The notes under the pieces: generated by a model
Databases searched by the model: none
Told to the model about the DNA's origin: nothing
The model's input: only the letters and a program-made list of their open reading frames with translations
Program-made: the position numbers and the translations under genes
NCBI GenBank assembly: GCA_021824565.1
Contig: JAKAKL010000147.1
Coordinates: 1-38,222, forward strand
Direction of reading: 5' to 3'
DNA from: Bacteroidota bacterium
GTDB lineage: Bacteria > Bacteroidota > Ignavibacteria > Ignavibacteriales > Ignavibacteriaceae
Length of the DNA stretch: 38,222 bases
Part shown: positions 4,308 to 38,115 of the stretch, in pieces
How the letters are laid out: the number at the start of each line of letters is the position of its first letter
How positions within the stretch are numbered: the first letter of the stretch is position 1

Positions 4308-5024
4308 TTATACATTGCCAGCCACAACTAATGTGGAATGATTTTTTTCTAAACTAAAACCTATTTTGGGTTTATTACATAATTTAAAAAACTTTGCAAA
4401 GTATTTTGACAAATCATAAGTATTGGAATTGGTTACTTCAATAATTAATGATTCTAAGTCTCTAATAAAATCTTTACTTGAGATATTTTCGAGTCTTTCA
4501 ATTTTTTTTGGTTTGGATAATCCAACTTGATTAGGACTTAAATACATTAAATAAGGTAAGGCAACCATCAGACCTTTTAGTGGAATATTTTTATTCTTTT
4601 TAAATACCTTCTCTAACTTTGGGATATCTTCGCTCAATGTTTGTTTAAATTGTTTTTTATCATAATCATTTAAAAATTGTTCGGGTTCAAATCCAAGCTC
4701 AATGAATTCTTTATAAAATCTATGATGACAAAATTCATTATAGAGATGCCCTATCATTTCTGCACCGATATTTTCTTCGTCTACAAAAAAAGGACATTTC
4801 ATTCCAAGTAATTCATATTTTATATGCAATAGTTCGTGTGTGAAACAAGCTATTGGATATTCTGATTTTTTTATACCTATTGTTGCTTTTTCATTATATA
4901 GCTTTGAAGTCCAAGAATCTCCTTCTTCATTAATCAATTCAATATTAGTTTTACTTTTTATTTCATTAAATAGATTTTGATTTTTCGAATCAACTAATTC
5001 TTCTATTTTATAAATCAAATTCAT
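4308..5024 (-). CDS. HExxH-containing protein, possible zinc peptidase
   Basis: A 238-residue protein with a THELLHIKYE helix at residues 62-71. HELLH (63-67) is a zincin-type HExxH motif, and acidic residues follow in VDEENIGAE (81-89), one of which could be the third ligand. No signal peptide or membrane segment is visible, so it is probably cytoplasmic. The rest is charged and helical and belongs to no family I can name. No Shine-Dalgarno precedes the ATG. It is bounded by attC-like site D downstream and by a GTTATGT box (5037-5043) just upstream, so it is the gene of one cassette. The peptidase role is inferred from a single motif. Confidence 0.55.
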   Translation of the reverse strand: MNLIYKIEELVDSKNQNLFNEIKSKTNIELINEEGDSWTSKLYNEKATIGIKKSEYPIACFTHELLHIKYELLGMKCPFFVDEENIGAEMIGHLYNEFCHHRFYKEFIELGFEPEQFLNDYDKKQFKQTLSEDIPKLEKVFKKNKNIPLKGLMVALPYLMYLSPNQVGLSKPKKIERLENISSKDFIRDLESLIIEVTNSNTYDLSKYFAKFFKLCNKPKIGFSLEKNHSTLVVAGNV

Positions 5025-5036
5025 AATGATTAGGTT

Positions 5037-5067
5037 ACATAACTATTATTTAAGCCGATTACACCGC
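5037..5067 (-). other. attC-like half-site at the end of the array
   Basis: ACATAAC (5037-5043) repeats the R-type box of site D, and AAGCCG with CACCGC follows within 25 bases, as in one L arm. I find no matching second arm before the hairpins at 5080-5224, so this is probably the truncated last site of the array or a remnant. Confidence 0.35.
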
Positions 5068-5079
5068 ACTCATTTTGGC

Positions 5080-5111
5080 GTGATAGCCCGATTTGTATTT
5101 CCGCCTATCAC
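5080..5111. repeat. Hairpin with conserved 18-nt loop, copy 1
   Basis: GTGATAG (5080-5086) pairs perfectly with CTATCAC (5105-5111) around an 18-base loop of the form CCCGA...TTCCGC. The loop resembles that of the next hairpin although the stems differ, so this is a small REP-like family rather than a simple duplication. Confidence 0.6.
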
Positions 5112-5543: not shown

Positions 5544-5924
5544 GTAGCACAGACTTTAGTCTCATAGGCGTCAACTTAATTTTTCTTCCGAATCTTCTAA
5601 CTTCTATAATCATTTGACCTTAACGTGATAAAAATATTTATTTATCCTCTACGAGGATATCCTATCTTTTGGATTTATTTGTTTCTACAATAATTAAAAC
5701 ATCTACGATGTTTTTTAACCTCGTAGAGGTCAAATTGTTGTAGGAAAGAGTTCAATCTATATTGCTAAATCCTCGTAGAGGATTAACAAATTCATGGGTA
5801 TTCGTTAGAATTTTTTATAATTTTATTCTCAATATTGTAAATCTGCAAATCCTTAAGTTGACGCTAATGAGACTTTAGTCTGTGTGTGCAAAAATCTAAA
5901 ACTTCAGACTAAAGTCTGTTCTAC
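5544..5924. mobile_element. MITE-like element with terminal inverted repeats
   Basis: Two nested inverted repeats bound about 380 bp with no gene. The outer pair is GTAGCACAGACTTTAGTCT (5544-5562) against the complement of 5906-5924 (one mismatch). The inner pair, 5547-5579 and 5853-5884, matches over roughly 30 bp with a few differences. Each end also contains the self-complementary AGACTTTAGTCT/AGACTAAAGTCT. The interior holds four short hairpins with a TAC/GTA loop. Non-coding length, terminal repeats and internal palindromes fit a MITE or a REP cluster moved by a Y1-type transposase elsewhere. No target-site duplication is obvious. Confidence 0.55.
5643..5784. repeat. Four hairpins sharing a TAC/GTA loop
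   Basis: The stems are TATCCTC/GAGGATA (5643-5659), AAAACATC/GATGTTTT (5696-5714), ACCTC/GAGGT (5718-5730) and AATCCTC/GAGGATT (5768-5784). All close on a three-base TAC or, inverted, GTA loop. The stems differ by compensating changes while the loop is constant, which suggests selection on a folded form. Confidence 0.55.
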
Positions 5925-6670: not shown

Positions 6671-6724
6671 TTTTTCGCCTTTCCATTTGTTATTAAATAA
6701 GGATTAATTAAATTCAAAATTTTA

Positions 6725-7271
6725 CTTCCTATCTCCCATAAATTGCCTTCCGGTTATTATGAGCTGTCTTATCATTTAACTAATTCGCCTTCCTATTTAA
6801 ATGTGACATCTTCTTAATTATTTACCTCATCTTCCGGTTAAAATACTTCATCTCCCTAATTCAATGCGACATCCTCTCATTCAAATGGCTCATCTACTTA
6901 AATATTTACACCATCTTCTCAATTCTTTGTCTCATCCTCCTAATTATTTACTTCGCATTCTCATTCTTTTTCTTCAGCTGCACATTTCTTTATCATGCCT
7001 TCCTATTTAAATATGATATTTTCTGAATTATATATCATATCTTCTTATTTAAATGCCATATCTTCCGAGTTATTTGTCATATCTTACTATTTAAATGTCA
7101 TATCTTCATAATTATATGTTATGTCTTCCTATTTAAATATCATATCTTCTTATTTAAATATCATATCTTCTTATTTAAATACCTCATCTTCATAAATATT
7201 TATGTTATCTTCCTAATTTCTTAGCTTATCTTCCATTTAAAATGATTTGTCTTCTTAATTCTTTGCATCAT
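6725..7271. repeat. Degenerate 21-bp tandem repeat array (about 26 units)
   Basis: The array is a run of 21-base units of the form CTTC-YTATTTAAAT-RTCATAT on the plus strand. From 6789 to 7271 the phase is exact (483 bp = 23 x 21), although individual units share only about half their bases. Units starting at 6999, 7041, 7083 and 7125 carry TTTAAA while the units between them carry ATTATA or GTTATT, giving a 42-bp higher-order period. Three more units extend to 6725. 21 bp equals two helical turns, so AT tracts recur on one DNA face. The array has no CRISPR spacers and no complete ORF, and it fills most of the gap between the divergent genes at 6670 and 7600. Confidence 0.85.
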
Positions 7272-7599: not shown

Positions 7600-8862
7600 A
7601 TGGATAATAGATTACTTAATCAGTATGAAAAGCCAACCTCGCTTCATTTTAGGATTTTATTCATGAGCTGGGCTGGCTGGGTTTTTGACTTTTACGATCT
7701 GATTCTTTTTTCTTTCCTTCTTATTCCTATCGGGAATGAACTTCATCTATCTTCAATAGAGCTTTCATTTGTGCTTGGTTCCTCGCTTGCCGCTACCGCG
7801 CTTGGCGGCGTTATCTTCGGCGTTCTTTCAGACCGCTTCGGCAGAAGAAGCGTTCTGCAATGGACTATCCTTACATACAGCATTGGAACTTTCCTTTGCG
7901 GTATATCTTCCGGTATCGAAGCTCTGCTGTTCTTTAGAATTATTACTGGGCTTGGCGTCGGCGGAGAATGGGCGACAGGACAGACTTACATCAGCGAAAC
8001 GTTCCCCGCAAAGAAGCGCGGAAGGTACGGCGCTTTTATGCAGACCGGCGCGCCTTTCGGAATTGTGCTGGCTTCAATAGTCGGCGGATTTATAGAGCAG
8101 CAGATCGGGTGGCGTTCTTGCTTCTTCCTTTCCGTTACTCCCGCTCTTTTAATTTTATTTATTAGAAAGAAACTTCCGGAATCCGATGTATGGCTTGAAA
8201 AGAAAAAAATAAATTTGGAAGCTTCACCGGTTGATACTGCGAAAAAGGAACCGAATAAATTCTTTATGTTATTTAATAATGAATACCGCAAGGTATTTAT
8301 CAAATGTTTGATACTTGCGATATTTGATATGTCGGCTTACTGGTTTACATACACATGGCTGCCTGCGTATCTGCATCATGAAAGGCAATTCACGCTTACG
8401 AAATCCGCGGCTTGGATGCTTATAACACAAGCCGGCGGACTGCTTGGTTATTTTACGTTCGGGTTTTACGCTGATAAATTCGGCAGACGTCCGGCGTATT
8501 CCGTGTATTCAGTCGTGATGGCAATAGGATTAATTATGATAACTCTATTGTGGGATTATGTCGTAAATTTTCCGCCGCTTATTTTAAGTTTTATGTTCTT
8601 TGTAGGATTCGGCACCGGCATGTTCAGCGGGTACGGTCCTCTGTTCGCGGAATTATTCCCGACGTCGATAAGGAATACTGCAATGGGTTCGGCGTTTAAT
8701 CTCGCGAGAGGTATTCAATTTTTTACCCCGGTAATCATAGCGACAATAGCAATCAATTACGGCTTAGGCGGAGGTATTTCATTAGCGGCTTTGTTTGCTC
8801 TGCTTACCGGCGCATGGATATGGGTCTTCCCGGAAACCAAAGGCAAGGAAATTATAATTTAA
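7600..8862 (+). CDS. MFS transporter, sialate/carboxylate:H+ symporter type
   Basis: A 420-residue, 12-helix major facilitator. The N-terminal GWVFDFYDLILFS helix with an intramembrane Asp, the loop 2-3 motif SDRFGRRS, and GLGVGGEWATGQTYISETFP followed by KRGRYG match the metabolite:H+ symporter group (SHS/AAHS-like; the NanT, ShiA and Jen1 families share these signatures). The second half repeats the pattern (ADKFGRRPAYS, LFAELFPTSIRNTAMG). It probably imports an organic acid or sugar acid with protons across the inner membrane. The substrate cannot be read from sequence. An AAGGA Shine-Dalgarno precedes the ATG. It stands alone, followed by a strong hairpin at 8887-8925. Confidence 0.85.
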   Translation: MDNRLLNQYEKPTSLHFRILFMSWAGWVFDFYDLILFSFLLIPIGNELHLSSIELSFVLGSSLAATALGGVIFGVLSDRFGRRSVLQWTILTYSIGTFLCGISSGIEALLFFRIITGLGVGGEWATGQTYISETFPAKKRGRYGAFMQTGAPFGIVLASIVGGFIEQQIGWRSCFFLSVTPALLILFIRKKLPESDVWLEKKKINLEASPVDTAKKEPNKFFMLFNNEYRKVFIKCLILAIFDMSAYWFTYTWLPAYLHHERQFTLTKSAAWMLITQAGGLLGYFTFGFYADKFGRRPAYSVYSVVMAIGLIMITLLWDYVVNFPPLILSFMFFVGFGTGMFSGYGPLFAELFPTSIRNTAMGSAFNLARGIQFFTPVIIATIAINYGLGGGISLAALFALLTGAWIWVFPETKGKEIII

Positions 8863-29386: not shown

Positions 29387-31135
29387 ATGATTAAAAAAAT
29401 CAGAATAAAAAATTATAAAGCTTTTAGAGACTATAATGAAATTGAAATAAAACCAATTACAATATTAGTTGGACCTAATAGTGCTGGTAAAAGTTCATTA
29501 CTTAAATTAATATCAAAATTAAAAAGTCGATATGAAACAATATTACTTGAAGAATTGAATTATAATAACACTACTTTTTTGAGTAATAAAAATCCAATTG
29601 AAATTAAAATTGAATACGGATTCGAGAATAAGTCATTTATAAGTAATTTTTATTTCATGGAAAATAAACTTAATGTTGAGACTACTAAAAGAGAAGAAAA
29701 AAACAATAGCCGCAATATAAAAAAGTGCAGTAAAGATTTTAGCTTAAATTATATAAATGGATCATATCCTGTCATAAATTGGGATGGATTAATCAAATTA
29801 GCTAAACAAAATCTCGAGCATAATTATAGAGATGAAATAAAAGAAATAAATAATTTATTAAAGGCTTTTAAAAACGGGCATTTTTTAGAAGTTTGGGATA
29901 TAATAAGACCAATTCAAGATATTATTTATGAGGATTTTATCAAGGAAGATCAATCTAATATTTCGTTTAATGGTAATCCCTTCTATATAGAATTAGAAGA
30001 TAAAAGTGAATTTGAAGTGGCAGATGATATATTAAAGCATTGCAAATATGAAATTCCAGAATATGAGCAGCTCGATTTTATTTATAAAAATGATAAAATA
30101 TTATCAAAAAGATTTAATGAAATAGAAAAATCAATTATATATGATAACTCTACAAAAACAAGAAATATCCTTCTGGATATGTTAAGAAATATCAAGCCCC
30201 AACTAAAATATGACGAAATATTGAGCTCCAAAATCATTGTGTCGTTATGTGTAGTAATATTTTCAGCTAGATTAAGATATGAATTATTGAAGATCAAAAA
30301 AGAATATTTAAATAATATAAAGAAGATTGGCTTTGGCAAGTTAACAAAATATAGCTTACCAAAAATAATAAATATAAACCCATTACGTGGTATACCAAGA
30401 AATTACTATGATAAAAGAGAACTAGTTGAAAATTTTCAAATTCCCATTGAATACTTGGATATGCATAACAATTTAAATGATCTTCAAAATGCTGTAAACA
30501 AGCTACTGAAGCGAATGGAAATCAATTATAAATTGATCATAAAAGAAATAAGGCATAAGAATTTAAATGAAAGGATCTATGCCGTAAAATTAAAAGATAT
30601 TATAACAAACTATGAATATAATCTTAATGAATTGGGATTTGGAATTTCACAAATACTTCCAATCATTAGCAATATTTACATTAATAATCGACGAACATAT
30701 TATGAACGACGAAGCTTTGATTTTGAATTTAAAAGTAACTCCAATATCTATCTAGTTGAACAACCAGAAATACACTTGCACCCAAAACAGCAAACATTAC
30801 TTGCTAAACTTTTCTATGAATTACTATTTGATGAAAAGTTATATGACCAAATGTCGGACAATTATTTGGACATAAATGAATATGATGGGGATAAAGTAAT
30901 TATTGAAACACATTCTGAGCATTTAATAAGAGGATTACAATTATTAGTAGCACAAGGGAAAATAAAACCTGAACATTTAGGCATCTACTATATTAATAAA
31001 AATAATGAAGGTGAAAGTTCAATAAAACTAATGGAAGTTAATGATAACGGTTTATTTAAAGAAGCATGGCCGGAAGGTTTTTTCGATCAGCATTATAAGC
31101 TTGCTAAAGAGTTATTATTTGCAAAGAGGAAATAA
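29387..31135 (+). CDS. AAA ATPase, OLD/DUF3696-like
   Basis: A 582-residue ABC/SMC-type ATPase. Walker A GPNSAGKSS is at 29-37, after the RIKNYKAFRDYNEIEI N-terminus typical of OLD/RecF-like proteins. Signature-like NELGFGISQILPII comes before the Walker B LVEQPEIHLHP (456-466; E458/E461), then the switch His in ETHSEHLIRG. The last ~60 residues (ESSIKLMEVNDNGLFKEAWPEGFFDQHYKLAKELL) match the DUF3696 tail. There is no TOPRIM domain. A ~330-residue charged helical insertion lies in the middle. Such ATPases act as sensors in several phage-defence systems with a separate effector. The stop overlaps the next start (TAATG). The gene is very AT-rich and sits under a sigma-54-type promoter. Confidence 0.8.
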   Translation: MIKKIRIKNYKAFRDYNEIEIKPITILVGPNSAGKSSLLKLISKLKSRYETILLEELNYNNTTFLSNKNPIEIKIEYGFENKSFISNFYFMENKLNVETTKREEKNNSRNIKKCSKDFSLNYINGSYPVINWDGLIKLAKQNLEHNYRDEIKEINNLLKAFKNGHFLEVWDIIRPIQDIIYEDFIKEDQSNISFNGNPFYIELEDKSEFEVADDILKHCKYEIPEYEQLDFIYKNDKILSKRFNEIEKSIIYDNSTKTRNILLDMLRNIKPQLKYDEILSSKIIVSLCVVIFSARLRYELLKIKKEYLNNIKKIGFGKLTKYSLPKIININPLRGIPRNYYDKRELVENFQIPIEYLDMHNNLNDLQNAVNKLLKRMEINYKLIIKEIRHKNLNERIYAVKLKDIITNYEYNLNELGFGISQILPIISNIYINNRRTYYERRSFDFEFKSNSNIYLVEQPEIHLHPKQQTLLAKLFYELLFDEKLYDQMSDNYLDINEYDGDKVIIETHSEHLIRGLQLLVAQGKIKPEHLGIYYINKNNEGESSIKLMEVNDNGLFKEAWPEGFFDQHYKLAKELLFAKRK

Positions 31136-32037
31136 TGAACCAAGAAATTATTATTGAGAAATCATTTATAAGATATTTAGAAAACAGCAAATTGTCATTT
31201 AAAATTTCTGAAGCTCAAAAATGTGTAGAGGTTATAGAGCAAAATAATATTATCAGTGATGAAAATGAAGATATTTATAAAGATTATCAGGAAGAACTAG
31301 AAAAAATTAGCAATTCTGATTTAAGAATATTAATTGCAGAATTAATTTATGAGTGGAAGGAGAAAAAAACAAAACAAGTTACGTTTACTTATAATAAAGA
31401 AAATATTCTTGAATTAACTAAACTTTCAAAAGACAAGATTTTATTTAATCCTACATTAACAGCTAAAGAAATTAATAGAATACTAAAAGCTAATTCTGAT
31501 GTTGAAGTTCATAATAAAGATACATTTATCAATCCAGAACCATATCATAGATTAAAAAATATTGATATTAGGATAAAGCTTAATAAAGATGTCTATTATG
31601 ATATAAGATTACTTTTTGAACCGTTTATTAGATGCTCTGAAGAAATTACAATAATTGATCCTTTTCTGCCTAACAACAATGCATTGCAAAATGTAAAAGT
31701 TATTTTGAATCATATTGCCAATAGGAAAATAAATTTAATTACTCACTCAGGCCATAACTATGTTCACAAATATGGGAATAAAAATCCAACTTTATACGAA
31801 AGTAATTGGGTCAATTTCCAAAAATTTATTAGTGAATTAAAAGGAAAAAACAATCAAGTACAAGTAAGTGAATTCAAAAATAGAAAACACCAAGAAAGAT
31901 ACCTGATAACAAATGATGTAAAAATTATTTTACCTGGTGGGATGGATTTTCTTGATGAAAACGGATTCCCTAACATAGAAGATGAAAACTTTGAGATTAT
32001 GGAATTGGCATTTACAAGAATCGATGAGGAATCTTGA
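31135..32037 (+). CDS. Partner protein with PLD/MIT_C-like C-terminus
   Basis: A 300-residue protein translationally coupled to the ATPase. The first ~110 residues are helical and charged. The C-terminal ~150 look like a single phospholipase-D-like fold: a strand ITIIDPFLP (residues ~171-179), then LITHSGHN, and HQERYLITND...ILPGGMDF, where H252, R255 and D261 followed by Gly-Gly resemble a degenerate HKD motif (MIT_C-type). PLD-like proteins include nucleases and lipases, and some only bind. Paired with an OLD-like ATPase, an effector role in defence is plausible. No family is certain. Confidence 0.55.
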   Translation: MNQEIIIEKSFIRYLENSKLSFKISEAQKCVEVIEQNNIISDENEDIYKDYQEELEKISNSDLRILIAELIYEWKEKKTKQVTFTYNKENILELTKLSKDKILFNPTLTAKEINRILKANSDVEVHNKDTFINPEPYHRLKNIDIRIKLNKDVYYDIRLLFEPFIRCSEEITIIDPFLPNNNALQNVKVILNHIANRKINLITHSGHNYVHKYGNKNPTLYESNWVNFQKFISELKGKNNQVQVSEFKNRKHQERYLITNDVKIILPGGMDFLDENGFPNIEDENFEIMELAFTRIDEES

Positions 32038-32087
32038 ATTATTAATTTATAAATTCGAATAGTTTTAAACCCAAAAAGTATTTATTT

Positions 32088-33626
32088 ATGATTTATTTCT
32101 CTTTCATCGGCAACCACGATAAAATCTCATCTTCAAATGAGTACGGCGCATTTTATAATATCTTCATCAATTACAAAAACGATATTTCTAAAATATTTGT
32201 TTTCACAACACCTAAAACTGATAGAGCCGATTATACCGAAATCGCAAATGAAAATATTAAAATAATAAAATCTATAAAAAAAGAAATTGAAATAACTCCA
32301 GTTCAAATTGACTTAGCAAATCCAGTTGACTTTGATTTAGTTTATCCCAAAATGCTGGATGCTTTATTAAATATAATTGAAGAAAACAATATTAAGGATG
32401 ATGAGAAAATAATTAATATCACCTCCGGCACTCCCACAATGTCGGCTTGCTGGGTTTTACTTGCTCAATCCGGACTAATCAAAAATACAAAATTAGTTCA
32501 GTCATTTGAGCAGCAATACTCCCGAAGTGGCAAGACCACACGGGAAGTTAATTTTGATATTGATGATTTTCCAACAATTAAGGCTCCTTCGGCGCTAAAG
32601 CGGCAGCTTACCATTACCTCCCGCGAAAATAAGGAACTGAAAAATAAATTAGTTCAAGAAGAATTGGATAGAAAAGTACCTGATTTAATCGGTACATCCA
32701 AAGCAATAAGAGATGTAAAAGATCAGATTGTTCATGATATAAATGATAAAACACATGTTTTAATAATCGGCGAAAGAGGAACCGGTAAGGAAGTAATTGC
32801 AAATTCAATATGGAAATTATATCATAAAAAAAATGACGAAAAGTTGAAAACAGTTGACTGCGGTTCATTTCCAAAAGAACTAATCCAGTCTGAATTATTC
32901 GGTCATACAAAAAATGCTTTTACCGGCGCTAATACTGAAAGGGAAGGCATCCTATCATTAGCAAAAGATAAAATGATTTTCCTTGATGAGATTGGAAACC
33001 TGTCTCTAGATGGTCAGCAGAAACTTTTAAGAGTTCTTTCACATGGCGAAATAAGAAAGTTAGGTTCAGATGAAGTTGACAATATAAGTATTCAAATAAT
33101 TGCTGCAACTAATAAAAACATAGATGACCCGGAACTATTTGCGCAGGATATTAAAGACAGGTTCGACGAAATAATATCCCTTCCTCCATTAAAGAACAGA
33201 AAAGAAGATATTCCTTTGCTGATAGATCATTTTATGAAGATATACTCAGGAAGCAATAAAACCTTATCACCTATCCAGATTGATAAAGCATTATATAAGA
33301 AATTAATTAATTTTGACTGGCCCGGCAATATAAGACAGCTAGAGAAATGGGTGCAAAAAATAATACGCAGATTCAGCGAAGGCGGAACCATAAAATTAGA
33401 AAACCTGCCGGAAAGATTTATAGATGACCTTATCGACGACAACTCAGACGATTTTATTCTGCCGGAACTTCCGCTGCTAATACCATTAGATGACTATGTT
33501 GAAAAAATTAGGGAGAAAGCAAGAAAAATGTCGGACAATAATATGTCGGAGGTAGACAGACTTCTAAATCAAAAATTAGGGACAGAGAAACAGAGGCAGT
33601 ACAGGGAAAGGAATAAGAAAGAGTAA
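32088..33626 (+). CDS. RtcR-like sigma-54 activator with CARF-type sensor domain
   Basis: A 512-residue regulator. Residues 1-180 form an RtcR/CARF-like Rossmann domain: MIYFSFIGNHD at the N-terminus and INITSGTPTMSACWVLLA (109-126), the nucleotide-binding loop shared with CRISPR-associated CARF proteins. Residues ~205-430 are a sigma-54-interacting AAA+ domain: GERGTGKE (Walker A, 228-235), NAFTGA (276-281; normally GAFTGA), MIFLDEIG (Walker B, 296-303) and FDWPGNIRQLEKW. The last ~45 residues are basic (SEVDRLLNQKLGTEKQRQYR) and may bind DNA. E. coli RtcR senses RNA 2',3'-cyclic phosphate ends and activates RNA repair genes. No rtcBA is present here, and the neighbours are defence-type genes with sigma-54-like promoters. 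Confidence 0.85.
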   Translation: MIYFSFIGNHDKISSSNEYGAFYNIFINYKNDISKIFVFTTPKTDRADYTEIANENIKIIKSIKKEIEITPVQIDLANPVDFDLVYPKMLDALLNIIEENNIKDDEKIINITSGTPTMSACWVLLAQSGLIKNTKLVQSFEQQYSRSGKTTREVNFDIDDFPTIKAPSALKRQLTITSRENKELKNKLVQEELDRKVPDLIGTSKAIRDVKDQIVHDINDKTHVLIIGERGTGKEVIANSIWKLYHKKNDEKLKTVDCGSFPKELIQSELFGHTKNAFTGANTEREGILSLAKDKMIFLDEIGNLSLDGQQKLLRVLSHGEIRKLGSDEVDNISIQIIAATNKNIDDPELFAQDIKDRFDEIISLPPLKNRKEDIPLLIDHFMKIYSGSNKTLSPIQIDKALYKKLINFDWPGNIRQLEKWVQKIIRRFSEGGTIKLENLPERFIDDLIDDNSDDFILPELPLLIPLDDYVEKIREKARKMSDNNMSEVDRLLNQKLGTEKQRQYRERNKKE

Positions 33627-33658
33627 CATCCATTCTGTAAAAAGTAACATATGTAACC
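33623..33658 (+). promoter_or_regulatory. Candidate activator-binding repeats (UAS 2)
   Basis: GTAACAT at 33623-33629 and 33644-33650 (21 bp apart) and GTAACC at 33653-33658 lie just after the regulator stop and 52-87 bp before the -24 GG. An ATTCTG...CAGAAT dyad also frames part of the region. GTAAC is the reverse complement of the GTTAC pentamers at 29178-29202. The third copy begins 57 bp before the GG, as the second GTTAC copy does at the other promoter. Confidence 0.5.
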
Positions 33659-33708
33659 AGAATATTAAACAGAACCTTATTAACAAAGTAATTTGGTTCA
33701 AAACATAA

Positions 33709-33724
33709 TGGCATGTCATTTGTG
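33709..33724 (+). promoter_or_regulatory. Sigma-54 promoter upstream of the helicase operon
   Basis: TGGCATG-TCAT-TTGTG has GG at 33710-33711 and G at 33722, ten bases apart as required. As at 29254, the -12 element reads TTGT instead of TTGC. The predicted start near 33735 would give a leader of only about four bases before the ATG at 33739, which is unusual. Confidence 0.55.
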
Positions 33725-33738
33725 TTTAATAGGGTGCT

Positions 33739-34200
33739 ATGGAAACAACATCATACATAAAAAATAAAAATAAATTAAAAAATGCAGTTCAATTTATTGG
33801 ACAACTAAAAAATTGGAAAGTAATTGAAGCTAATGGGTTGAACAAATGGATTATATACGAGAAGGGAGAACTTTTAGCACGAATTGAATATGAGTTAACA
33901 CCGGAAAATTTATTATTAAAAATTTCTACCCCGGTTTTAGATAATGTTTCTATTTCGGACGAAATTATGGTAAGACCTTTGTTGCTTGAAAAAAATATTA
34001 GGGAAATATTAAAATCCGATAGACTTGTATTAATTGATGATATATTTTATTTATACAAAAATGTAAAAATCGATATTAAAAAACAGAATTTTAAAGCACA
34101 TCTATTAAACATTTTATCCGAAATTATTACTTCGGTCGACATTATATCGGTAAATGTGGAGATAAAAATAAATAACTTTATGCAAACAAGGCTTAATTAA
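33739..34200 (+). CDS. Small protein of unknown function, first gene of helicase operon
   Basis: A 153-residue soluble protein with no signal peptide, cysteines or catalytic motif that I can see. The secondary structure suggests alpha+beta: an N-terminal helix (NKLKNAVQFIGQLKNW), a beta meander (KWIIYEKGELLARIEYEL), and a C-terminal helix-strand (FKAHLLNILSEIITSVDIISVNVEI). It lies under the second sigma-54-type promoter and three bases before the NERD-helicase gene, so the two are co-expressed. It may be an accessory or sensor subunit of that nuclease-helicase. I do not recognise the family. Confidence 0.6.
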   Translation: METTSYIKNKNKLKNAVQFIGQLKNWKVIEANGLNKWIIYEKGELLARIEYELTPENLLLKISTPVLDNVSISDEIMVRPLLLEKNIREILKSDRLVLIDDIFYLYKNVKIDIKKQNFKAHLLNILSEIITSVDIISVNVEIKINNFMQTRLN

Positions 34201-34203
34201 AAA

Positions 34204-36069
34204 ATGGCTGTTATTTATCCTGACTTAGAGACAATTATAAATCTTAAACAAAAACCTGAAAAAGGAGAGATTCATTTACTGGAGTTTTTAATTAATAATT
34301 TAAATGACGACTATGAAATTTATTTTCAACCTTATTTAAATGGAGATAGACCTGACATTGTTGTACTTCGAAAAGATTCCGGGTTGTTAATAATAGAAGT
34401 TAAAGATTGGGATTTGGTTAATTACACAGTTGATAGAAAAGGAAGATGGAGCCTTTTGGACGGAACAATGATTAAATCTCCTTTTTCACAAGTTCAAAGT
34501 TATAAAGAAAACATTTTCGAGTTGCATATTGATGATCTATTATCCAAGCAAATCAAAAATTCCCAAATGTTCACTACTGTTTCCTGCGCGGTGTATTTTC
34601 ATAATTATTCTTTAAACGAAATAAATAAATTAATATTTCCGGAGGGAAGCGAAGAAAAATATAAAAAATGGTTGAACTATATTACTATTTGGGGAAATAA
34701 TTCTCTGAGAAATAATATTTTACAAGATTTTTTACATAAGAAGTATTTGGATAGAAAATCAAAATTATTTGATTTTGATTTATACTTAAAGATAAAAAGA
34801 TATTTACAACCGCCTAGACACTTAATCGAGCAAGGAAAAGAAATCAGATATTCGGATGAGCAAAGACAGTTAATAGTTAGTAAACCCGGCGATCAAAAAA
34901 TAAAGGGTGTGGCCGGTTGCGGAAAAACTCTAGTACTTGCCAAGAGAGCTGTAAATGCATATCTAAGAACTAAAGGGAAAGTATTAATCCTAACATATAA
35001 TATCACACTTCGGAATTATATACATGATAAAATAAATGAAGTTAGAGAAGATTTCGGGTGGGATAATTTTTTAATTCTGCATTACCATGAATTCTTTACA
35101 AGCCAGGCAAATAATTTTAACTTAACATTAGACACCAAAACATCTTATGAAGAAAATGATTTTTTTGAAAGAGTAAAAGTAAAGTTGCCAAAATATGAAG
35201 CAATTTTTATAGACGAAGCGCAAGATTATAAGTACGAATGGTTTTTCATTATTAAAAAGTATTTCCTTACTCAAGGTGGTGAATTTGTAATTTTTGCGGA
35301 TGAAAAGCAAAATATTTACGAAAGAAATTTGGACACTGATAAAAAGACTAAGACTAATATCCCAGGGAGATGGAATGAACAGCTAAAAACAACAAAGCGC
35401 TTATCAAATTCTATAATTCAATTAACTAATAATTTTCAAAATACTTTTTGGAAGAATAAGTATGTACTGGATAATATAAAATTAAATCCCTCTCAGCAAG
35501 AATTATTTTCTGATGAAAAAATTGTATATAAGTTTATAGAAGGAAATATAAATTCTACTAATATAGTGAATTATATTTTTGAAACTATATATAATAATAA
35601 TATCCATTCAAATGATATTGGCATTCTTGGTCCTGAAATTGATTATTTGAGGGAAGTTGATTTAAATATTAGAAAGTTAAAAAAAGAGAAAACGAGAACT
35701 ATGTTTGAGACTCATGAGATATATGAGTATTTAAAAAATAAATATATTGAGAAAGGCATGAAAGGTGATAATCTTAACAAAAGCCTTAAAGAAGAGGTCG
35801 AAAGAGTACGTCGAAGCAAAAAATTTAATTTTTGGATGAATCCGGGTACAATAAAAATTTCTACTATTCATAGTTTTAAGGGCTGGGAGATTGATACATT
35901 ATTTTTAATAATTACTGAAAAAATAGAAGAAAAATATATATTTTTGGAAGAATTAATCTATACAGCACTTACGAGAGCTAAAAGGAATTTATGTATTATT
36001 AATTTCAATAATACAAATATTCATGTATTCTTTAAAAATAATATTAATAATGAATCTACAATAATCTAA
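34204..36069 (+). CDS. NERD nuclease - SF1 (UvrD/Rep-like) helicase fusion
   Basis: A 621-residue protein. Residues ~15-180 form a NERD nuclease domain: GDRPDIVVLRKDSGLLIIEVKDW with D51, E65 and K67 as a PD-(D/E)xK active site. Residues ~215-620 are a superfamily 1A helicase: YSDEQRQLI (Q-motif), GVAGCGKT (Walker A, 235-242), ILTYNITLRNYI (motif Ia), DEAQD (337-341, Walker B), STIHSFKGWE and YTALTRAKRNL (motif VI). One-protein NERD/helicase enzymes (the staphylococcal Nhi type) degrade phage DNA. It is transcribed with the preceding small gene, and a retron RNA follows immediately, so it may be the retron's partner as well as a stand-alone defence. The overall architecture is secure. Confidence 0.85.
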   Translation: MAVIYPDLETIINLKQKPEKGEIHLLEFLINNLNDDYEIYFQPYLNGDRPDIVVLRKDSGLLIIEVKDWDLVNYTVDRKGRWSLLDGTMIKSPFSQVQSYKENIFELHIDDLLSKQIKNSQMFTTVSCAVYFHNYSLNEINKLIFPEGSEEKYKKWLNYITIWGNNSLRNNILQDFLHKKYLDRKSKLFDFDLYLKIKRYLQPPRHLIEQGKEIRYSDEQRQLIVSKPGDQKIKGVAGCGKTLVLAKRAVNAYLRTKGKVLILTYNITLRNYIHDKINEVREDFGWDNFLILHYHEFFTSQANNFNLTLDTKTSYEENDFFERVKVKLPKYEAIFIDEAQDYKYEWFFIIKKYFLTQGGEFVIFADEKQNIYERNLDTDKKTKTNIPGRWNEQLKTTKRLSNSIIQLTNNFQNTFWKNKYVLDNIKLNPSQQELFSDEKIVYKFIEGNINSTNIVNYIFETIYNNNIHSNDIGILGPEIDYLREVDLNIRKLKKEKTRTMFETHEIYEYLKNKYIEKGMKGDNLNKSLKEEVERVRRSKKFNFWMNPGTIKISTIHSFKGWEIDTLFLIITEKIEEKYIFLEELIYTALTRAKRNLCIINFNNTNIHVFFKNNINNESTII

Positions 36070-36076
36070 GGTTATA

Positions 36077-36226
36077 AAAAAGCACTTGTGTAAGCGATAT
36101 AAATTTGGACTGTGTAACTGCAGTCGTAATTTCAAGGTGTTATTATACTTTATTAGGTCTAGTGAAATCCTTATACAATAGAATAGACCTACCATGATAA
36201 GCAGATATATCCGGCAAGTGCTTTTT
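36077..36226 (+). ncRNA. Retron msr-msd RNA
   Basis: The 12-base a1 repeat AAAAAGCACTTG (36077-36088) and its complement CAAGTGCTTTTT (a2, 36215-36226) bound ~150 bases and end eight bases before the reverse transcriptase ATG. After a1 comes TGTAAGCG, resembling the conserved branching-guanosine context (AGC) of known retrons. A GACTG/CAGTC stem-loop follows (msr). Then TAGGTCTA and TAGACCTA form an 8-bp stem extended by TTATTAT/ATGATAA, a plausible msd hairpin. Order and size fit a retron ncRNA. The exact cDNA ends cannot be read. Confidence 0.75.
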
Positions 36227-36234
36227 AATTTTAT

Positions 36235-38115
36235 ATGACAAAAAATATTTATACTGAAATATTTAATAACAAGTATTCTGCTACTTTAAAAGAAAAGATT
36301 AATAATCATAATATTGATGAAATAAGAGATTATATTGGTAAAAGAAGGTTTTCTAATCAATATTTAAACTGGTTATTAAAGCATAACGAGATCAGTAGTG
36401 ACGCTAAAAATATATTTGCAGATGAAATTAAAAAAAGAAAAGTAGTAAATGATAAATTACTCCAAGATTTTTTACTAATATTCAATAAGGAAAGTGTTGT
36501 AAAGTTCCTAAATACAAAAATAAGATCTTTAACTTATGTTTTATATGTAATTAGTGAGAATAAAAAATACACCGAATTTACTATTAAGAAAAAAAATGGT
36601 AAGGAAAGGATTATTTCATCACCAAATCTTGCATTAAAAAAATGGCAAAAGAAACTTAACGAAGTTTTGCAATTATGTTATATTAATAAAATAGCTGTAC
36701 ATGGTTTTATTGCTAACAAATCGATTATTACAAATGCATTTACACATATAAAAAAAAGGAACGTACTTAATATTGATATAAAAGATTTTTTCCCCTCTAT
36801 TAATTTTGGCAGAATAAGGGGTTTGTTTCTTAATAGTCCATTTAATTTTACGAAAGAAGCTGCCACTATATTAGCTCAAATTTGCACTTTTAAGAATCAA
36901 TTACCTCAAGGAGCACCTACCTCACCGATAATATCAAATTTTATTTGCAGCCGTTTAGATCAAAAAATGACAAAATTAGGACAGAAGTATTATTGTACTT
37001 ATACAAGATATGCTGATGATATTACTTTCTCTAATACAAAAAACAACTTACCAGAAAACTTAATCGAAGAAATAATAAATATAATACGTGAAGAAGGCTT
37101 TGAGGTTAATGAAGCTAAAGTTAGAAATCAAACAAGGGTAGTGAGACAGGAAGTTACCGGTCTTACGGTGAATGAAAAGATAAACATAAACCGTAAATAT
37201 ATTCGTAAGGTTAGGGCTATATTACATTCGTGGGAAACAGAAGGTTATGAAACTGCTTCAAAGAAGTTCTTTGGGAAATATGATAGGCATAGATATAAAA
37301 GACCGAGTTTAAGAACTTCAATTAAGGGTAAAATTGAGTTCATAGGAAGCATACGTGGGAAAAATGATGATTTATACAAGAAATTATTAGAGAGATATAA
37401 AGTGCTTATAGGAGATCCGAATGTTGAGAAATATGAGGTATATAGAGAAGCAAAAAAACAAGAAAGAGAAAAGTTTAATAAAGCAATTGAATCTAAAAAG
37501 AAATTAAAATGGATGAACTATGATAAAGAGTTAAAACATAATCCTAAGGAGTTGGTAAAAAGTTTGCAGTTACTTTCTAATCCTAGTGCTAATTTGAGAA
37601 ATTTAGTACATAAACCCAGTCAAAATGAAAGTTTTGATTTACCTTCAATTTTTAGAGCGGCAAGGTGTGAATTTAATAAGATAAAAGTCAACTTACCTTC
37701 ATTTGTCCGTCATTTAATAGAGAAAAAACTATTTGAAGTTTATAAGAAAAATGGTTTCGAAATATGGAATAAAAACAAACTATGCCCTCTGGTATCGGAT
37801 GAACAGTTTTATAAGCAAATACAATCATTTAAGAGAAAATATCGATTTGGGAAAGCCGATATTGAAGAAACAAATCTATATACGGCATTGCAAAAAATGA
37901 TTAAAGAAGATGATTTATCAAAGCTTATTGGGAAAATAGATATTGATGTTAAAGTCGAAGAAGCTAACTTTTATACTGACGTTGATGCAGTGATAATATC
38001 AATTAGAAAAATATTAAATATGTGCATAAGATTTGGCAAAGATGATAATTATAAATTGAAAATTGACTATTATAAAGAAGGTAGAAGAAAAATTCTTGAA
38101 ATATGTCATCTATAA
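36235..38115 (+). CDS. Retron reverse transcriptase with unknown C-terminal extension
   Basis: A 626-residue protein. RT motifs: NIDIKDFFP (motif A, D181/D184 region, from 179), LPQGAPTSP (motif B, from 223), RYADDITF (motif C, YADD 259-262) and VTGLTVN (from 307), the VTG signature that distinguishes retron RTs, followed by SIKGKIEFIGSIRG. A typical retron RT ends near residue 390. A further ~235 residues follow (a Lys/Glu-rich linker to ~430, then a helical domain with SIFRAARCEFNKI, FVRHLIEKKLFEVY and a C-terminal ISIRKILNMCIRF) that I do not recognise. This extension is the likely fused effector. The msr-msd RNA lies directly upstream. Confidence 0.85.
   Translation: MTKNIYTEIFNNKYSATLKEKINNHNIDEIRDYIGKRRFSNQYLNWLLKHNEISSDAKNIFADEIKKRKVVNDKLLQDFLLIFNKESVVKFLNTKIRSLTYVLYVISENKKYTEFTIKKKNGKERIISSPNLALKKWQKKLNEVLQLCYINKIAVHGFIANKSIITNAFTHIKKRNVLNIDIKDFFPSINFGRIRGLFLNSPFNFTKEAATILAQICTFKNQLPQGAPTSPIISNFICSRLDQKMTKLGQKYYCTYTRYADDITFSNTKNNLPENLIEEIINIIREEGFEVNEAKVRNQTRVVRQEVTGLTVNEKININRKYIRKVRAILHSWETEGYETASKKFFGKYDRHRYKRPSLRTSIKGKIEFIGSIRGKNDDLYKKLLERYKVLIGDPNVEKYEVYREAKKQEREKFNKAIESKKKLKWMNYDKELKHNPKELVKSLQLLSNPSANLRNLVHKPSQNESFDLPSIFRAARCEFNKIKVNLPSFVRHLIEKKLFEVYKKNGFEIWNKNKLCPLVSDEQFYKQIQSFKRKYRFGKADIEETNLYTALQKMIKEDDLSKLIGKIDIDVKVEEANFYTDVDAVIISIRKILNMCIRFGKDDNYKLKIDYYKEGRRKILEICHL

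Follow-up and report, generated by a model that had tools for sequence, protein, structure and literature searches.

The degenerate 21-bp array in the window (the whole stretch of 38,222 nucleotides analysed here) lies directly upstream of a gene for a 243-aa PQLLE family protein, on the same strand, and belongs to this gene, which the initial annotation had overlooked. We read the array as a tandem series of protein-binding sites on double-stranded DNA that forms one module with the neighbouring gene, and assign this reading a probability of about 0.58. By guilt by association, we infer binding and function for the neighbouring protein, which is probably the ligand of the phased sites. A tandem array of two-turn units beside the gene of a small helical protein without known function is a widespread bacterial arrangement and apparently an undescribed one: literature searches turned up nothing against the earlier statement that no such element had been described, no literature was found under the PQLLE name, and DUF6261, a second family with arrays, is named in one paper, on daptomycin resistance in streptococci to judge from its title. 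The features are listed in Table 1.

Table 1. Coordinates of the array and adjacent features in the window
Feature	Position	Strand	Basis
PQLLE family (NF052641) gene, 243 aa	5939..6670	-	ORF, NCBIfam, AlphaFold2, internal duplication
Spacer from array to start codon, 76 bp, presumed leader	6671..6746	-	position only
Degenerate array of 21-bp units, 25 units	6747..7271	-	chained units, column counts
Divergent MFS transporter gene, outside the module	7600..8862	+	MFS_1, E 1.8e-48

The autocorrelation of 6725-7271 was 0.606 at 21 bp and 0.642 at 42 bp, compared with 0.372 at the top lag outside the 21-bp series and with a maximum of 0.426 in 500 Markov simulations over all lags from 5 to 89. The degenerate 21-bp array is therefore real, and the 42-bp alternation described for it is also real but modest. 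A chaining script permitting steps of 19–23 bp placed 25 units of 21 bp (24/24 steps of exactly 21), so the array starts at about 6747, two units past 6789; the 23 units previously assigned to 6789-7271 are there, but that extent was too short. A still weaker unit at 6726-6746 may be part of the array. Tandem Repeats Finder located the better-kept part at 6991-7241, with periods of 42 and 21 and 0% indels, and together with the uniform steps this bears out the exact phase without net insertion or deletion that had been claimed. Conservation on the gene strand is highest in a GAAG block and at one A (25/25 units). A scan that considered stretches of 126 bp or longer at a threshold of 0.62 detected no other array of period 15–69 bp in the window. 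A CRISPR array was rejected as an identity, since the units run head to tail, are degenerate and lack spacers, and Rfam gave 0 matches within the window. Elsewhere in the window, positions 29387-38115 are AT-rich (24–33% G+C in most 1-kb steps) and contain, by eye, an AAA-type ATPase, a sigma-54-type activator, a UvrD-like helicase and a reverse-transcriptase-like ORF; this region looks like a defence or mobile island.

The 243-aa protein matched the NCBIfam model NF052641 (‘PQLLE family protein’) with an E-value of 3.7e-31 and 108.4 bits, above the curated cut-off of 80; it matched no Pfam family at 0.001, and no PDB relative was found by sequence. NF052641 is an uncharacterised family in NCBIfam, and its name is silent on arrays. 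AlphaFold2 (36 sequences) predicted an all-helical protein without strands (pLDDT 92.8, pTM 0.79), with two internal repeats that each have one 56-residue helix. The halves of the protein align as an internal duplication (hhalign E 2.1e-21), and since they are repeats of one another, each molecule should have a pseudo-twofold build. Using this model, Foldseek gave a best PDB match at E 0.054 (McpS ligand domain), the VIA structural search a best Z of 10.1 (3tul_D), within the usual range of its output for helical bundles, and BFVD no match at E<=0.001; none of these structural searches pointed to a known DNA-binding fold. Most PQLLE proteins are acidic (mean net charge −4.5 and median pI 5.25 over 36 sequences), which argues against a simple DNA-coating protein; that of the window is basic (+8, pI 9.4) and has a lysine-rich tail. 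The intergenic DNA downstream of its gene (5640-5800) holds several CCTCTACGAGG-type palindrome copies.

The presence of the array tracks the PQLLE gene rather than the divergent MFS gene. Such an array was seen at none of the 11 other loci with homologues of the MFS gene (L016-L026, some cut by contig ends), and a role as part of the regulatory region of that gene was rejected on this ground. The 243-aa gene was found in 4 of 59 genomes (its own, which is counted, and relatives), and of 395 genomes from the phylum, 9 had a match to NF052641; upstream of nearly every match was a 21/42-bp periodic stretch, different in sequence each time. The initial annotation would have taken absence of the array from all relatives as a refutation; the array type is present in them, with a sequence that is unconserved even where the proteins of the genes are 71% identical. 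A scan of named genomes yielded 44 further PQLLE loci, labelled Bacteroidetes, Ignavibacteriae, Cyanobacteria, Chloroflexota, Aminicenantes, Chitinispirillaceae, Bacillota MAG and Deltaproteobacteria MAG. Non-pathogenic, culturable carriers include Ekhidna lutea DSM 19307 and Reichenbachiella agariperforans DSM 26134 (L057 and L060).

Among 59 non-redundant PQLLE loci, an array of 20/21-bp period was located upstream in 47 and only downstream in 3, compared with control-period arrays in 4; a PQLLE gene is usually accompanied by an array. In loci with an upstream array, this lay at a median of 87 bp from the gene (measured to the stop-to-stop frame), with the array of L053 1.07 kb from its gene. 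Nine loci had no array at the threshold of 0.60: in four (L046, L056, L083 and L088) a contig end leaves 2–172 bp of upstream DNA, in three (L038, L085 and L091) a shorter or more degenerate array is visible by eye, and in two (L063 and L070) none is seen. The set omits repeats of the same place (L009, L015 and L048 for the window; L042 for L013; L011 for L014; L012 and L055 for L038; L067 for L047; L076 for L040; L096 for L039), retains L052 despite low-complexity AT and a control period, and scores L082 and L095 as upstream on the array preceding their second PQLLE gene. Around 57 PQLLE loci (flanks of 1.5–4 kb, some ending at contig ends), no neighbour family occurred in more than six, apart from PQLLE itself and its shadows; the smaller clusters were antisense shadows, translations of arrays, one 6-locus group and one 4-locus group with sensor-like ORFs. 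Conserved neighbours, including a par operon, were thus rejected as a recurrent component. Three loci showed individual peculiarities. The PQLLE gene of L047/L067 (G377:C24) is broken by one in-frame stop, and its upstream array is kept; in L061, a second array of 40-bp period (4803-5099) lies downstream of the PQLLE gene and precedes an ORF resembling an endonuclease of the very-short-patch type; and in genome G001, a CRISPR-like array with a period of ~66 bp and a repeat with an ATTGAAA end stands directly before the PQLLE array and gene (G001:C17:149111-151961, L235-L247).

The unit step was examined in 45 non-redundant arrays, that is, the 47 upstream ones minus L064 and L081, which nearly duplicate L039 and L077. 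With chaining that allowed 19–23 bp and penalties favouring 21, the 521 steps comprised 455 of 21, 64 of 20, one of 22 and one of 19 bp, so that 519 measured 20 or 21 bp. The arrays ranged from 4 to 35 units; 20-bp steps occurred in 15 of the 45, and the mean step was 20.2–20.6 in some (L040, L057, L059, L060, L062, L077 and L089). A further set of 24 arrays gave 264 steps of 21, 29 of 20, 9 of 22 and 2 of 19 bp, most of the 22-bp steps belonging to DUF6261 arrays, where the script has poorer resolution.

These steps bear directly on codon phasing, one of two explanations originally offered for the constant phase, and on the corresponding proposal that the array encodes a protein of seven-residue repeats. 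The open plus-strand frame of about 80 codons described for the window does exist (6784-7026), and open heptad frames occur in other arrays too; a 21-bp repeat is, however, expected to leave some frame stop-free by chance. Stops on the minus strand are likewise present, in 18, 19 and 13 of 23 units for the three frames respectively. Variation by codon position was found in 0 of 42 arrays of exactly 21 bp, and the period-3 harmonic of column variation was below chance (z −2.4, 41 arrays). Codon phasing was rejected because of the frame-shifting 20-bp steps and the absent codon-position variation; coding of a seven-residue-repeat protein is already refuted as a general explanation, and we leave it next to no probability.

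Helical phasing, the other explanation, fared better in one of its forms. The second harmonic of column entropy (10.5 bp) reached z 11.2 over the 41 arrays with at least 7 start positions, being the strongest of ten in 24 of them and individually significant (p<0.05) in 14. It was again raised in the 24 further arrays (z 4.8), a set only partly unseen, as 11 had already been examined (2/11 at p<0.05). Within the window’s own array, this harmonic was again the strongest but fell short of significance (p = 0.091), and several arrays are without a 10.5-bp component (p 0.97 in L082 and 0.90 in L089). AT content had no 10.5-bp component over the 41 arrays (z 0.3). Conservation with a period of one turn, without composition of that period, is the mark expected of a protein that contacts the helix on one face only. 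The protein-binding form of helical phasing is therefore upheld by the 20/21-bp steps and the 10.5-bp conservation, and the bending form is unsupported. The latter corresponds to intrinsically bent DNA, in which helix-phased AT tracts would produce the curvature with no need of a specific protein. The AT-richness of many arrays, that of the window included, and a short A run in the common motif are in its favour, but the missing AT harmonic and an unchanged step in the GC-rich arrays L041 and L049 make this exceedingly unlikely.

A weak motif, C..gtAG.AATGATTtt, was common to the 44 arrays with at least 6 units when these were aligned by rotation and strand. Its score was 2320.6, where 25 draws of pseudo-arrays from neighbouring DNA gave 1474.9 ± 46.9; on the gene strand only, the values were 2106.0 and 1219.9 ± 45.4. 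Descent among related arrays accounts for part of this score. The orientation of the motif relative to the gene was 28:16, within the null range (24–31 of 44). Its core is near-palindromic, and dyad symmetry was in excess in aggregate (z 5.5 over 44 arrays and 5.8 over 41) and individually significant in only 11 of the 44; strong palindromes were only moderately in excess (27 versus 10.8 expected).

A position upstream of the gene, as in 47 of the 59 loci, would also suit an array acting as RNA, with a repeat transcript that is processed and bound by the protein in the style of a type III toxin-antitoxin. In such systems (ToxIN), tandem repeats with little sequence conservation between loci lie upstream of a small gene, and the ToxN toxin fold contains strands. 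The PQLLE arrays resemble them in being tandem, upstream of a small gene and variable in sequence between loci; they differ in the 20/21-bp repeat with its DNA-face signature, the weak RNA folding and the helical protein. Four arrays (L059, L060, L082 and L095) fold better than column-permuted arrays on both strands, and complementarity of left with right half-units is slightly better within than between units (+0.016 ± 0.007, 33 arrays). Against this, the mean folding z over 44 arrays was only −0.31 (sense) and −0.49 (antisense), and RNA structure was discarded as the explanation on account of this weak average; in addition, the array lies downstream of the gene in three loci. A ToxN-like endoribonuclease was rejected because the PQLLE model is all-helical without strands and there was no Pfam match. 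Since the step is locked to 20/21 bp and conservation recurs once per turn, B-DNA fits and RNA does not, and we hold action as RNA to be very unlikely.

Arrays of this kind also accompany DUF6261 genes. In G001, an array of the 21/42 class precedes a gene matching PF19775 (E 1.2e-20), a model whose name is likewise silent on arrays. The prediction of arrays at other DUF6261 genes held in 6 of 9 newly fetched loci (L255, L256, L258, L260, L262 and L263), each with an upstream 41/42-bp array of at least 0.56. The misses were L259 (0.53, at 41), L257 (0.56 only at a 60-bp lag) and L261, the last two having no 41/42-bp array upstream of the gene. Among 120 random 1.3-kb stretches, drawn from two genomes in which PQLLE had no match, 0.56 was reached by none and 0.53 by three, a comparison in which the background was scored at lags of the 20/21 series only and the foreground at all lags from 12 to 63. 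Homology between DUF6261 and PQLLE was not demonstrable (hhalign probability 9.5), in contrast to a more distant PQLLE branch that is demonstrably homologous to PQLLE.

The arrays extend beyond both families. In 719 kb of the window’s genome outside the window, 18 of the 22 arrays with a period of 15–69 bp belonged to the 21/42 (41) class, including three that showed the 42-bp period alone. None of the 18 adjoins a gene found by the PQLLE model; by eye, four adjoin small genes with a helical or a helical-plus-fibronectin-III appearance, and the others lie by ordinary genes. Contig C20 alone has eight arrays of the 21-bp class without a PQLLE match, which rules out that arrays are exclusive to PQLLE genes. 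No arrays of the 21/42 class were found in 400 kb of each of two genomes without a PQLLE match, compared with 2 in 320 kb (G093), 2 in 390 kb (G377) and 4 in 400 kb (G001) of genomes with one. The arrays outside PQLLE loci and this comparison of genomes therefore indicate a genome-wide class that is enriched where such genes are present. Two genes, at G000:C5:135102-135713 and G000:C115:28107-28730, combine a front part that looks helical with a fibronectin-III-like end, and each has a 21-bp-class array directly upstream; they are perhaps a third array-linked family, the fn3 in such array-adjacent genes being just under the Pfam cut-off.

This distribution raises two further alternatives. The first is that another common factor, for example a nucleoid protein, binds the arrays, and the small helical protein is a partner, effector or regulated product. 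One array type shared by PQLLE and DUF6261 without demonstrable homology, the many arrays adjoining ordinary genes in the window’s genome, and one array sequence that recurs at 9 places on 8 contigs (another recurs at 2 places) are all in its favour. It accounts poorly for PQLLE genes nearly always being near an array. Moreover, the array sequences of the window, C41 and C10 loci, all from one genome, differ so strongly that recognition of them all by one specific factor is difficult to envisage, and we regard a common factor as unlikely. The recurring sequence is a dispersed, self-complementary 42-bp array family (G000:C20:191797-192320 and 8 other places), whose translations keep a heptad pattern, ending similarly at the two loci L174 and L180.

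The second alternative is a hypermutable satellite that the protein, or replication slippage in two-turn steps, maintains or amplifies, and whose presence near these genes serves no binding function. Near-perfect, recently expanded arrays exist (L013 and L054), copies are dispersed, and sequences diverge completely between loci, as would be anticipated of such a satellite. A weak common motif and 10.5-bp conservation are unexpected of neutral satellites, however, and the link to particular gene families persists across phyla. We therefore rate a satellite of this kind as quite improbable, less so than action as RNA.

Among known systems, plasmid centromeres (parC/ParR, parH/ParG, parS-omega and sopC/SopB) consist of tandem direct or inverted repeats that vary in number and to which a small, also repressing protein binds; in type Ib partition they precede the par operon (PMC5016525). 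The likeness lies in tandem repeats beside a gene, seen here up- or downstream in 50 of the 59 PQLLE loci. The PQLLE loci differ in having no recurrent ATPase or actin- or tubulin-like partner gene (ParA, ParM or TubZ type) and in the dispersed chromosomal copies of arrays. Proteins of the ParR/ParG/omega type also have ribbon-helix-helix or winged-helix folds with strands, whereas the PQLLE model has helices only. Iterons of Rep-controlled plasmids are spaced about two turns apart. They share with the arrays direct repeats about two helical turns apart beside the gene of the binding protein, in so far as PQLLE is that protein; they differ in that Pfam and NCBIfam revealed no Rep domain here, that there was no plasmid match, and that the arrays have 4 to 35 units of hardly conserved sequence. 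Searches of plasmid, phage and viral collections gave no match to the probed family members, and the L038 protein had none in 72,556 plasmids. An iteron or centromere identity was rejected, because the fold, the motor or Rep gene and the plasmid location were each tested for and not found in the loci and collections searched. As no known system has these parts, we consider the system categorically new; if any tandem row of binding sites counts as one kind, the arrays are a new form of a known sort.

In the module that we favour, each protein site would span two helical turns, and all sites would therefore face the same side of the helix. The adjacent gene’s product, the PQLLE protein, would be the ligand, its two internal repeats conferring a pseudo-twofold shape that would match a site of two turns. 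Copies bound side by side may form a filament-like complex, which could repress its own promoter and/or mark, bridge or condense the array DNA, in a manner likened to that of iteron- and centromere-binding proteins on plasmids. Cooperativity and function (autorepression, marking or bridging of DNA) are thus what we infer from the arrangement. A broader scheme, possible though doubtful, is a chromosome-wide DNA-organising system in which small, pseudo-symmetric helical proteins of at least two unrelated families would each polymerise on their own two-turn array, array copies at many chromosomal sites would allow the protein to bridge or mark distant loci, and selection would keep the helical step and not the sequence.

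If the proposed module is correct, at least two protein families of no known function would gain a role, namely DNA binding in phased rows, and degenerate repeats that look like junk, and at which several contigs end, would become a recognisable functional element. The entropy harmonics inside the repeat are a simple computation that can be applied to other satellites. Evolution would then be keeping the helical step of DNA at these loci while nearly all of the sequence varies freely.
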